Shown here: positions 11,563 through 50,500 of the stretch, in pieces
How the letters are laid out: every line of letters begins with the position of its first letter
How positions within the stretch are numbered: the first letter of the stretch is position 1
From: Desulfitobacterium metallireducens DSM 15288
GTDB lineage: Bacteria > Bacillota > Desulfitobacteriia > Desulfitobacteriales > Desulfitobacteriaceae
Assembly: GCF_000231405.2 (NCBI RefSeq)
Contig: NZ_CP007032.1
Span: forward strand, 2,728,001 to 2,792,000
Length of the DNA stretch: 64,000 bases
Direction of reading: 5' to 3'
Program-made: the position numbers and the translations under genes
The notes under the pieces: model-generated
Database searches by the model: none
What the model was told of the DNA's origin: nothing
The model's input: only the letters and a program-made list of their open reading frames with translations

Positions 11563-11791
11563 GTCTCTGGGGTGTGGATTTTGTTTACTTCGTTCACTCC
11601 GGGCGCTTCGCAGACCGAAGCTAAGGCACTGTCTCCTTCTCTGGGTCGCGGGACGCCGCCAAAATCGTCTCCTGACTCTGTTGGCGGTTGCGCACGTCGT
11701 GTGCGCAACCCTTTTCTTTCAAGCAGGAGCCACTGCCTAAGCTTCGGTAACAGCTTGCTTAAGTCGTTCTCTCCCGTAAATCAAAATCCAC
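11563..11791 (-). repeat. Half-copy A1 of the palindromic element (minus orientation)
   Basis: Read on the minus strand, it is closed by a terminal stem: GTGGATTTTG at 11791-11782 pairs with CAAAATCCAC at 11583-11574, extended by GTAAA/TTTAC. Inside are a hairpin GGTTGCGCAC/GTGCGCAACC (11686-11710), a GCCAACAGAGTCAGGAGACG motif within a GCC/GGC-closed hairpin (about 11658-11687), and GGTCTGCGAAGCGCCCGGAG near the 3' end. A2 carries the same parts in the same order with different stem bases. Confidence 0.7.
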
Positions 11792-11907
11792 GTGCAGGTC
11801 TTTCTTGCTTCTTATGCATGCATCTGTAGCCGGTGGTACATTATGTACCACGCTACCTCTTGGGTCGTGAAATTCCCACATACAAGAGACCCATGAAGCA
11901 GCCCGGA

Positions 11908-12131
11908 GAGTTGCGAGTACAGATGCGGAGGCCTTAAGAGAGCAGCTAGCAAACTTGGCGAAAACTGGCTTGCATTAGCGGGGCGGGCACATGGACGTGC
12001 CCGGGCGCCAACAGAGGCAGGAGCCGATTCTGGCGCCAAACCCCGCCTGCTATTATCGAACAGTTTGAGCCGCTAGTTTGCTCTGCGAGCGCCTGGCCGG
12101 AGCAGTTGTAATCGCAACTCACCCCAGACAC
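11908..12131 (+). repeat. Half-copy A2 of the palindromic element (plus orientation)
   Basis: The terminal stem is GAGTTGCGA (11908-11916) with TCGCAACTC (12112-12120). Inside are CCTTAAGAGAGCAGCTAGC, hairpin GGGCAC/GTGCCC, and hairpin GGCGCC...GGCGCC holding ACAGAGGCAGGAGCCGATTC (12011-12030). GCTCTGCGAGCGCC and CCGGAGC come before the closing strand. The parts align with A1 read on the minus strand. The terminal stems differ completely in sequence but both pair perfectly. Confidence 0.7.
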
Positions 12132-28275: not shown

Positions 28276-29643
28276 TTAATTCGACAAACTCGTGATTGGA
28301 GCAGGAATCCTGCCTCCCCGCCGTACAAATTTGCGCGCTGAAAACGGATTTACTTTGATAACAGGAGCCCCACCAAGCAAACCTCCAAACTCAACACGAT
28401 CTCCTGCCTTCTTTCCTATTGCCGGGATCACACGAACCGCCGTCGTCTTCTTATTGATCATACCGATAGCAGCCTCATCCGCAATAATTCCAGCAATCGT
28501 TTCCGGTTCCACATCCCCTGGAATTGCAATCATATCCAGTCCCACGGAACAGACACAGGTCATCGCCTCTAACTTTTCGATAGTAAGCGCTCCCGTTTCT
28601 ACAGCATAAACCATCCCCGCATCTTCCGAAACAGGAATGAACGCTCCACTTAATCCCCCAACATGGGAAGAAGCCATTGCTCCTCCTTTTTTCACGGCAT
28701 CATTCAGCATGGCTAAGGCTGCCGTTGTCCCATGCGCTCCGCAACGTTCAAGACCCATGTTTTCCAAGATCTCCGCTACACTATCGCCAATCGCAGGCGT
28801 CGGGGCCAAGGACAAATCGATAATTCCAAACGGAGCGTTCAAGGCCTTCGAAGCTTCGCGTCCAATGAGTTCTCCAGCCCGTGTGATCTTAAACGTCGTT
28901 CGTTTAATTAGATTAGCCAGTTCGCTCAAATCCGCATCTGGATTTTTTTCGACCATTTTCGCCACAACACCAGGTCCACTCACGCCGACATTGATGACCA
29001 CTTCCGGTTCACCCACTCCATGGAACGCTCCCGCCATAAACGGATTATCTTCCGGAGCATTACAGAATACAACGAGCTTAGCCGCACCAATTCCATCTTG
29101 ATCCGCTGTAAGCCGTGCGCTTTCCAACACAACATGGCCCATTTTCAAAACAGCATCCATATTAATTCCAGCTTTAGTTGACCCAATATTAACTGAGGAA
29201 CACACATACTCTGTCTCGGCTAGCGCTTGAGGAATCGCCGCGATAAGAGCCTCATCTCCCTTGGTGAAGCCTTTTTGGACAAGTGCTGAAAATCCGCCCA
29301 AGAAGTTAATCCCTACTGTTTTCGCCGCTCGATCTAGGGCTTTAGCAAGGCGTACCATTTCCTCTGGCTTAAAATTCGACCCTAATAGGGCCACCGGAGT
29401 CACCGAAACCCGCTTATTAACAATCGGAATTCCATACCGCGCCGCCAGTTCTTCCCCAACTTGAACGAGATTCTCCGCCCGGTGGGTAATTTTATCATAG
29501 ACTTTCTGCTCCACGACTTTGATGTCATCTCCTGCACAATCGAGAAGTGAGATTCCCATCGTAATCGTACGAATATCTAAATTCTCCTGTTCAACCATCT
29601 CTAGTGTTTGCATAATCTCTTGGGGTGTTATATTTAGAGTCAT
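28276..29643 (-). CDS. UPF0210 (PFL-like, DUF711) family protein
   Basis: This 455-residue protein matches the UPF0210 family throughout, with [47 protein letters not shown] and the C-terminal [31 protein letters not shown]. The family shares a fold with pyruvate-formate-lyase-like enzymes but has no settled function. Its usual partner is the small ACT-domain gene (30209-30508). Here the pair is separated by about 560 bp of palindromic element B. A glycine riboswitch precedes the pair, so a glycine-linked role is suggested. The start follows TTAGGAGAG. Confidence 0.92.
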
Positions 29644-29680
29644 TCCGTTCTCTCCTAACTTGTTAAGTTATTTGTAGTTT

Positions 29681-29869
29681 GTCTGGGTCGTGTAGCTTCC
29701 CGCACATCCGTTCACTTCGCGCTCCAGGGCTAGCACACGCGCTTCCGTAGCAGCTTCGCCAAACCCTTCTGCTTTCTGCATGTGAACCAGGTGGCTTCGC
29801 TATGCTACGGAAGCATCGTGCGCCGTCCCGCCCCTCCGCGAAATCGTTCACTCCTGTGCGGGAAGCTAC
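29681..29869 (-). repeat. Half-copy B1
   Basis: A perfect 15-bp inverted repeat closes the unit: GTAGCTTCCCGCACA at 29692-29706 and TGTGCGGGAAGCTAC at 29855-29869. Inside, GCTTCCGTAGCA and TGCTACGGAAGC form a second stem. AGCGCGAAGTGAACGGA on the minus strand corresponds to the GCGAAGCGCCCGGAG segment of A1. No protein-like frame is present. Confidence 0.65.
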
Positions 29870-29905
29870 TCTTGCAGGTCAATCTTCAAGCAATTCTTCG
29901 AAGCA

Positions 29906-30193
29906 AGTTACAATTACAGTTAGCGAGGACTCTGAGTGAGCATTGATCAAGCTTGGTCAAAATTGCTCTTACCTTTGCTTAACGAGTCACAAGGCCGAAA
30001 CACTTCACTGGAGTGTTTCGCTCGCCGACACTGAGCCAAGGCGACGGCACAGGACGTGCCTAGTGCAGACTGCGCCATGGATGGCATAGCAGATCTGCGC
30101 GGCGAATTTGGAGGGCATTACGCAACTTGCATCCAGCAGTTATGCCCTTAGCTTGGTCTGCGAGCATACCTTCCGAGCGTCTGTAACGTAACT
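29906..30193 (+). repeat. Half-copy B2
   Basis: The terminal stem is AGTTAC plus TTACAG (29906-29919) with CTGTAA plus GTAACT (30181-30193). Internal hairpins include GAAACACTTCACTGGAGTGTTTC (29998-30020, written here across its loop), GGCACAGGACGTGCC and a GGGCAT...ATGCCC pair. GGTCTGCGAGC before the closing strand matches A2. Confidence 0.65.
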
Positions 30194-30208
30194 CTGCTTG
30201 CAAGAGCT

Positions 30209-30508
30209 TTAGATTCGATGCATAAAAGTAAAGACATCCTCATGCTGAGCTGTCACTTTGAGCCCGCGGCCTTCCCCTTCTTCGTTGAGCTTCTTCGAAA
30301 GTTCCCCGAGGGAAATCGAGGACTGACTCATATCAACCACCATCATCATGGTAAAAAAGTCGTGTAAAATCGTCTGGCTGATATCGAGAATATTTACCGA
30401 GTATTCCGCTAAACGCCCGGTCACCCAGGCAATAATTCCGATTTGATCCTTTCCGATCACTGTGACGATTACACGATTAGACTTTTCCTGAGTAAGACTG
30501 TTGCTCAT
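30209..30508 (-). CDS. ACT-domain regulatory protein (UPF0237)
   Basis: This 99-residue protein is essentially one ACT domain: VIVTVIGKDQIGIIAWVTGRLAEYSVNILDIS followed by MMMVVDMSQSSISLGELSKKL. It belongs to the GcvR-like UPF0237 family, which typically binds amino acids and is encoded next to UPF0210. It is the first gene behind the glycine riboswitch and probably senses or responds to glycine or a related amino acid. The ribosome site is AAGGGAG. After the stop codon the transcript would run through element B before reaching the UPF0210 gene. Confidence 0.92.
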   Translation of the reverse strand: MSNSLTQEKSNRVIVTVIGKDQIGIIAWVTGRLAEYSVNILDISQTILHDFFTMMMVVDMSQSSISLGELSKKLNEEGEGRGLKVTAQHEDVFTFMHRI

Positions 30509-30601
30509 TTTCTAGAACTCCCTTCAATTTTCCATACTTTTCATAGTTTTAGCATTTTGACTCTCTTCTCATCCTACTTTAAACGAATAACTCAATGAAA
30601 A

Positions 30602-30760
30602 AAGCCTCATCCTTAAGGATAAGACTCTGGAGAATTTCAGGCTAATACCCTCTGTCCTTTTGCCTGAGAGATTATGCAGCTTACGCTGTTTGCCCCTTCG
30701 GCGTCCTTATCGGAACTCTCCAGAGATCTGTCCACTTACAGTGAAGCGACTGCTCTCCTG
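30602..30760 (-). ncRNA. Glycine riboswitch with expression-platform terminator
   Basis: On the minus strand the conserved glycine aptamer is plain: CTCTGGAGAG, then ACGCCGAAGGGGCAA, then ATCTCTCAGGCAAAAGGAC and AGAGG. Only one complete aptamer is evident; the preceding GGAGAGCAGTCG...GGACAG segment could be a vestigial partner. Downstream, TCTCCAGAG is complementary to the aptamer's first strand CTCTGGAGA. It runs into a terminator stem AGTCTTATCC/GGATGAGGCT with TTTTTT (30602-30626). This arrangement suits transcriptional control of the ACT/UPF0210 genes by glycine. Confidence 0.93.
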
Positions 30761-45117: not shown

Positions 45118-45212
45118 AAAACGCTTTCGGTGGCTTGGCAGTCATCAGAAGAACTCTGGAAGACCCATAGCTTTGCGTCCTTGGCTTTCGCCAAGTTTGC
45201 TCTTGTCGATGT
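45118..45212 (-). ncRNA. Cyclic-di-GMP-I (GEMM) riboswitch
   Basis: The minus strand contains the family signature in order: AGAGCAAAC, CTTGGCGAAAGCCAAG (a stem capped by a GAAA tetraloop), GGACGCAAAGC, CTATGGGTCT and ATGACTGCCAAGCCACCG. These match the GEMM-I aptamer core, including the A-x-G-C-A-A-A and ACGCAAAGCYA segments. It sits about 115 bp upstream of an HD-GYP gene, with a terminator in between. Confidence 0.93.
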
Positions 45213-50305: not shown

Positions 50306-50329
50306 GGTCTCAATTGAACATCATATTTA

Positions 50330-50476
50330 ATAGGTGCCCGCAAGGGACAATAGGGAACCAGGTTGAATTCCTGGACGGACCCACCACTGTAATTAGATGA
50401 TGAAAATGTGCATTAGCCACTGGGATAACCGGGAAGGCGTACATCGGAGTCTATAAGTCAGGAGACCTGCCTATAA
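50330..50476 (+). ncRNA. Cobalamin riboswitch
   Basis: Conserved segments occur in order: AGGTGCCCGCAAGGG, AATAGGGAACCAGGTTGAAT, CCTGGACGG, CCACCACTGTAATT, then GCCACTGGGATAACCGGGAA, GGCGTACATCGGAGT and AGTCAGGAGACCTGCC (the B12-box region). The aptamer is complete. It lies between a good promoter and a terminator upstream of an ECF transporter, so cobalamin should switch the operon off. The rest of the 50065-50592 gap holds only the two promoters and no gene. Confidence 0.95.
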
Positions 50477-50500
50477 AATATCGCCAAAAGGACAATGGTA

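Follow-up and report, generated by a model that had tools for sequence, protein, structure and literature searches.

The window analysed here is a stretch of 64,000 nucleotides from the complete 3.18 Mb genome of Desulfitobacterium metallireducens DSM 15288 (labelled G000). Its minus strand carries an operon encoding an ACT-domain protein (30209-30508; PF13740, E 1e-15) and, downstream, an intact UPF0210/DUF711 protein (28276-29643; PF05167, E 6e-197), and these domain matches agree with the gene identities proposed in an initial annotation of the sequence. The same annotation placed the gene pair under riboswitch control, and we indeed found a glycine riboswitch (RF00504, 62.8 bits) 5' of the ACT gene at 30642-30733 on the minus strand, followed by a terminator-like hairpin detected by a terminator search (30601-30628, minus strand). 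A cobalamin riboswitch (50315-50488, plus strand) and a c-di-GMP-I-GGC riboswitch (45125-45210, minus strand) are also present in the window. Between the ACT and UPF0210 genes lies a segment of ~530 bp (~29680-30203), termed element B, in which we detected no ORF of at least 80 amino acids and no match to an Rfam family above the gathering threshold; 12 related loci likewise matched Rfam families only far below threshold.

In order to establish the state of this junction in other bacteria, we retrieved UPF0210 from 34 of 41 genomes, i.e. G000 and 33 relatives, with 63-89% identity across the 32 relatives that gave near-full-length matches. The junction was read in 29 relatives. The other four with a UPF0210 match (G032, G034, G039, and G007) include the one whose UPF0210 fragment is most similar to that of G000, namely G007, where the junction is unreadable because the contig ends within the gene. 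In all 29 relatives read, the ACT and UPF0210 genes are side by side, as expected for a pair described as normally adjacent, and the site is empty, the two genes being -4 to 65 bp apart vs 565 bp in G000; element B is therefore an insertion. Both neighbouring genes were preserved, in agreement with the proposal that B had entered the operon: the ACT protein ends in MHRI in G000 and in MHRI or MHRV in 22 of 24 relatives among those listed (L103 is four residues longer, and the other exception is L104, in which ACT was left untranslated), and 36 bp remain between the element and the UPF0210 start, including the ribosome-binding site (29650-29656, minus strand; recognized from the sequence and by comparison with relatives). 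On the ACT side, B had been thought to start about 16 bp after the stop codon, but the edge shared by its repeat family is at ~30203, only ~5 bp past the stop. In this lineage, B thus entered cleanly as one block, with the stop codon of ACT on one side and the ribosome-binding site of UPF0210 on the other. No target-site duplication was visible when the junction was compared with those of the relatives, which counts against reading B as a mobile repeat.

Element B combines two dispersed modules, both non-coding and strongly folded, that are arranged head to head. The first, B1 (29680-29884; ~205 bp, minus strand in its probable fold sense), is an imperfect palindrome that would form one long rod with conserved internal loops, as indicated by 15-copy and 91-copy alignments and by a match of 212.8 bits to a covariance model (R1) built from 25 copies. 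It is closed by the perfect 15-bp inverted repeat reported previously, with arms at 29692-29706 and 29855-29869 that are evident on self-comparison of the sequence. The second module, M (or B2; 29896-30203, plus strand), is branched and structured, and matches with 202.4 bits (E 4e-48) a model of 229 positions (R2) built from seven B2-type copies, this one included and none from element A. Here M is enlarged by extra internal hairpins. Alignment with other copies locates at 29996-30020 (plus strand) an internal hairpin with a 9-bp stem, where most copies have a shorter hairpin of variable stem and a loop like ACA-GGAC; at 30042-30098 (plus strand), the R2 alignment reveals an extra stretch with a GACGTGCC hairpin, partly common to L005, that is an insert relative to minimal M copies. 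The terminal inverted ends of M are imperfect in seven copies. A short linker (29885-29895), located between the R1 and R2 matches, separates the 5' ends of the divergent modules, and the same spacing was seen by eye in L002.

The initial annotation had also related B to a second palindromic element of the window, termed A, on the basis of three common words, and all three recur: TGCAGGTC, GACGTGCC, and TCTGCGAGC are located at 29873, 30053, and 30157 in B and at 11793, 11994, and 12082 in A. Plain BLAST within the window detects this relationship weakly (best E 0.1). The R2 model, although it contains no copy from A, matches both halves of A, at 11568-11798 on the minus strand (E 7.6e-15) and at 11899-12129 on the plus strand (E 9.3e-21), so that the kinship holds in a formal alignment. 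The supposed common layout of a minus-oriented and a plus-oriented half is correct as to orientation, but the halves of B are different modules rather than copies of each other. Judging from these model matches, A is therefore a divergent M-M element and B a divergent B1-M element. Within the window, R1 matches B1, its opposite-strand shadow, the left half of A (E 6.5e-4), and one further stretch at chance level (E 0.57).

Both arrangements occur elsewhere. The divergent M-M order was found in L060, L062 (which overlaps L060), L063, L072, L076, L288, and L289, and G000 contains four further long copies of A with sharp ends, GTCTGGGG ... CCCCAGAC, giving five in all with that of the window (own-genome loci L060-L063). 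Two A copies lie ~1.6 kb apart in direct orientation. In G012, M is beside B1 in 23 of 31 loci searched, and in each of the 23 the modules are ordered and oriented as in B (strands judged by eye); the M model gave no match in 17 loci searched of the g7 group.

A DNA search with B retrieved 64 matching stretches in G000 at E <=10, 40 of 53 candidates being scored, and these consist of B1 alone, M alone, or B1 beside M (B itself, L002, and L003, the last having a longer spacer). The R1 model gave 33 matches in G000 at E <=0.01, of which 3 are opposite-strand shadows. It also gave 38, 74, 9, and 23 matches at E <=1e-5 in G004, G012, G016, and G018, which belong to one related genus, and 47, 57, and 45 at E <=1e-6 in three genomes of another (G020, G021, and G023). 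By DNA search, the repeat family is present in 16 of the 41 genomes, all in the taxonomic family of the window's genome. A search of 84,980 species genomes with the exact loop pattern, in a collection that may not include near relatives of the window, returned 36 stretches, 35 from Desulfosporosinus, a member of the Desulfitobacteriaceae, and 1 from Desulfitobacterium, and none elsewhere. The loop pattern had 0 matches in viral contigs, and BLAST of the element against plasmids gave no match.

The initial annotation had judged mobility likely, and this is supported by the dispersal of the copies (64 stretches and 33 R1 matches in G000) together with an empty site at a second locus, in a different genus. 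At the latter, between genes that we take to be CbiC-like and CobQ-like, G020 contains ~345 bp of element, G021 a remnant, and G023 none. The sequence ATTAG is the only candidate for a duplication there, and could be due to chance. To the right of this element (L237 vs L261/L262), a small hairpin, GGAAGCAAG ... CTTGCTTCC, is present in two genomes and absent from the third, and is perhaps another small mobile palindrome. Among the loci compared, no further empty site was found: the 60 of 108 candidate rows listed yielded only the L237 site again, the others being, by eye, same-locus or repeat-to-repeat matches. The site of L220, at a presumably Obg-like gene, is occupied in G020; in G023, a contig end interrupts it.

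Tandem arrays of ~235 bp, made of B1-like units, stand on both sides of ordinary genes in three close relatives (L240, L241, L242, L244, and L245); we assume these genes to be Hsp33-like and superoxide dismutase-like. The copy number of these arrays differs between species, and one difference at the superoxide dismutase-like locus is a deletion. Since the arrays of the g7 trio are at shared positions, many copies must be old, which counts against the mobility reading. The idea that an autonomous element is hidden between paired copies was rejected, as the genes in between are ordinary; no transposase was found between paired copies in the relatives' loci examined, and ORFs beside one array are presumably IS3-like. 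Very short B1 matches of 70-95 bp that retain both ends (L133, L134, L138, and contigs of G018, some in tandem in G018) are possible minimal forms of the element.

Both modules are predicted to fold more stably than expected, with z-scores of -6.4 (plus strand) and -7.6 (minus strand) for B1 and of -4.7 (plus) and -2.2 (minus) for M. Among 91 copies of B1, 94.8% of the cells are paired and 39 of 43 pairs are double-changed, a value reached in 0 of 500 shuffles; for M, a 42-match alignment (40 distinct copies) gave 90.6% paired cells and 63 of 74 double-changed pairs, again with 0 of 500 shuffles as high. These alignments were fitted to their own models and therefore lean towards the structure, and the shuffles leave relatedness in. 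Slid controls were paired at only 30-47% for B1 and 33-39% for M. In unfitted alignments, double changes were found in 32 of 43 pairs for B1 (25 copies, MAFFT) and in 11 of 74 pairs for M (7 copies). The unpaired internal loops of B1 are conserved across both the 25-copy and the 91-copy sets. On the minus strand, GUGAAC is seen by eye on both sides of the B1 rod, and these stretches would self-pair via tandem G.A.

The pair changes also point to a preferred strand for B1. Among the 41 pairs with at least 70% Watson-Crick cells, the plus strand has 88 A.C vs 28 G.U cells, distributed as 23 vs 4 pairs, beside 3506 Watson-Crick cells. Since an A.C on one strand is a G.U on the other, the minus strand of B1, which is the coding strand of the operon, would be the likelier to fold. 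All four genome groups share the A.C excess, which reaches significance in two of them, G012 and the g7 trio; in the unfitted alignment it was 26 vs 16. Among the G000 copies alone it fell short of significance, with 21 vs 12 cells and 10 vs 8 pairs, which counts against strand selection, and the M counts (67 G.U vs 50 A.C) were not significant either. Of the B1 copies in G000, 23 were examined against crudely called ORFs: 18 lie between co-directional genes (11 sense and 7 antisense), 3 are convergent, 1 is divergent, and 1 is unassigned; the lack of a clear orientation preference among the 18 also counts against strand selection. On balance, the pair changes suggest that the fold is probably under strand-specific selection, as RNA or as a single strand, and that the strand concerned in B1 is the sense strand of the operon.

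These features can be read in several ways. The best-surviving alternative, which we nevertheless regard as unlikely, is an ordinary MITE, i.e. an insertion sequence shortened by deletion and moved by the transposase of its parent, which acts on the terminal inverted repeats, with the fold as a by-product of these repeats. Terminal inverted repeats are indeed present in B1, M, and A, and the length of 200-600 bp, the absence of an ORF of at least 80 amino acids, and the dispersed copies would all be expected of a MITE. However, the modules are not AT-rich (G+C of 0.60 for B1 and 0.52 for M), target-site duplication is absent at B, and no parent insertion sequence was seen among the Y1 and reverse transcriptase families and the few loci examined. 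Moreover, the conserved internal loops and the 39 of 43 double-changed pairs exceed what defines an element with terminal inverted repeats.

Covariation could also arise independently of function, if template switching during replication let the palindrome arms recopy each other; the double changes would then be mechanical. The very low number of wobble cells relative to Watson-Crick cells in B1 is what one expects of arms that are recopied rather than drifting through G.U. The unpaired internal loops were not erased across copies, however, and the mismatches are strand-biased, which makes this explanation quite unlikely.

Strand-biased pair changes would also fit a retro-mobile RNA similar to a bacterial SINE, in which the minus-strand RNA of B1 is copied in trans by the reverse transcriptase of a group II intron. 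Four reverse transcriptase genes are present in G000 (G000:C1 597982, 1393126, 1723824, and 1920952), and their match scores are equal. The locus examined among them, L330, is a group II intron, which makes recently active intron copies likely. Against this, reverse transcriptase genes were found in all 8 genomes searched, carriers or non-carriers by DNA search, and are also frequent in G003, G006, and G011, which have no B1 by that search. Group II introns are structured mobile RNAs too, but B has no Rfam intron match, and neither B1 nor M resembles the introns; a direct relationship was rejected, as the R1 and R2 models match no examined intron. We consider such a retro-mobile origin very unlikely.

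Still weaker is the case for a REP/REPIN-type palindrome moved by a Y1 transposase (RAYT or IS200/IS605). The GTAG at the foot of the B1 terminal stem and the intergenic position of the palindromes recall such systems, but a Y1 transposase had 0 matches in the complete G000 and in G016, both carriers, although 21 of 27 genomes searched had one. Loss of the transposase is possible; the modules of 200-300 bp are nevertheless far larger than REPs, which are given as 20-40 bp (PMC3733652), and we hold this origin to be extremely improbable. Finally, the riboswitch-controlled setting and the structure of B could have suggested a regulatory RNA belonging to the operon, a second switch after the glycine riboswitch, an idea refuted by the 29 empty junctions of the relatives and by the copies at dozens of unrelated loci.

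Dispersal, lineage-specific stems, and the two empty sites instead argue strongly that the modules form a family of non-autonomous mobile structured repeats, so far found only in the Desulfitobacteriaceae. Many intergenic copies, a conserved secondary structure, and empty sites at the B junction and at the second locus are the characteristics of structured interspersed repeats. We compared B with BOX, ERIC, Correia, and bcr1 elements on the basis of published descriptions of these elements. The BOX elements of Streptococcus pneumoniae are modular, intergenic, and tightly folded like B1 and M, with hybridised termini and an internal module that is optional or repeated; they are described as transcribed within operons and of low current mobility, and one forms a composite with T-box riboswitches (PMC3049150). 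BOX and RUP are AT-rich with reported target-site duplications (PMC3049150), whereas the modules described here are GC-rich, without a clear duplication, and combined as two divergent units. ERIC and Correia (NEMIS) elements, which come from phyla other than that of B, are likewise intergenic palindromes; they insert into operons and are transcribed with them. RNase III is reported to cleave Correia transcripts, and ERIC elements to change transcript stability depending on orientation (PMC10969869, PMC3049150). The bcr1 repeat of the Bacillus cereus group is also a dispersed Gram-positive repeat with conserved secondary structure, but is shorter (~150-170 bp) and has a single module (PMC2267715). 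Among repeats of the BOX/ERIC/bcr kind, element B most likely represents a new family that is structured, mobile, and non-autonomous. Term searches in the accessible text of PMC3733652, PMC2267715, and PMC10969869 gave no mention of Desulfitobacterium, and no description of such repeats in these bacteria was found in the literature searched, a collection that mostly excludes subscription papers, so an earlier description is possible. This structured-repeat family has dozens of copies per genome and neither an Rfam match nor a literature mention that we found.

As to the operon, no match to an intrinsic terminator (a GC-rich hairpin followed by a U-run) or to a promoter was found inside B, and B is probably co-transcribed for this reason, with both genes intact. 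In that case, the intergenic part of the mRNA would fold into a branched domain and a rod of at least 40 pairs (the B1 consensus has 43), and this structure would most likely act as an RNase III-like cleavage or decay boundary, as reported for Correia elements, and the ACT and UPF0210 messages would gain separate stabilities. With no terminator, promoter, or ORF of at least 80 amino acids in B, the behaviour of Correia and ERIC elements suggests, by analogy, that read-through with processing would be the likeliest effect; we propose RNase-type uncoupling of ACT and UPF0210 only tentatively, as a possibility of somewhat less than even odds. For the reading as a whole, centred on an inserted composite of mobile structured repeats, we estimate a probability of roughly three in four. 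The modules are probably mobile and may divide the output of operons into which they insert. Rather unlikely, and more speculative, is a new class of mobile element with two folded modules set head to head. Here selection would preserve, and the mobility machinery would recognize, the fold that one strand adopts when single-stranded (as RNA) rather than the ends of the DNA; stems would be free to change while loops are fixed, and the block would serve as a portable message-splitter in operons.

A head-to-head design of two modules with strand-biased pairing is unusual among palindromic intergenic repeats. Moreover, the same operon exists with and without B, forming a clean natural before/after pair, so that the effect of palindromic intergenic repeats on mRNA is directly testable at this locus.
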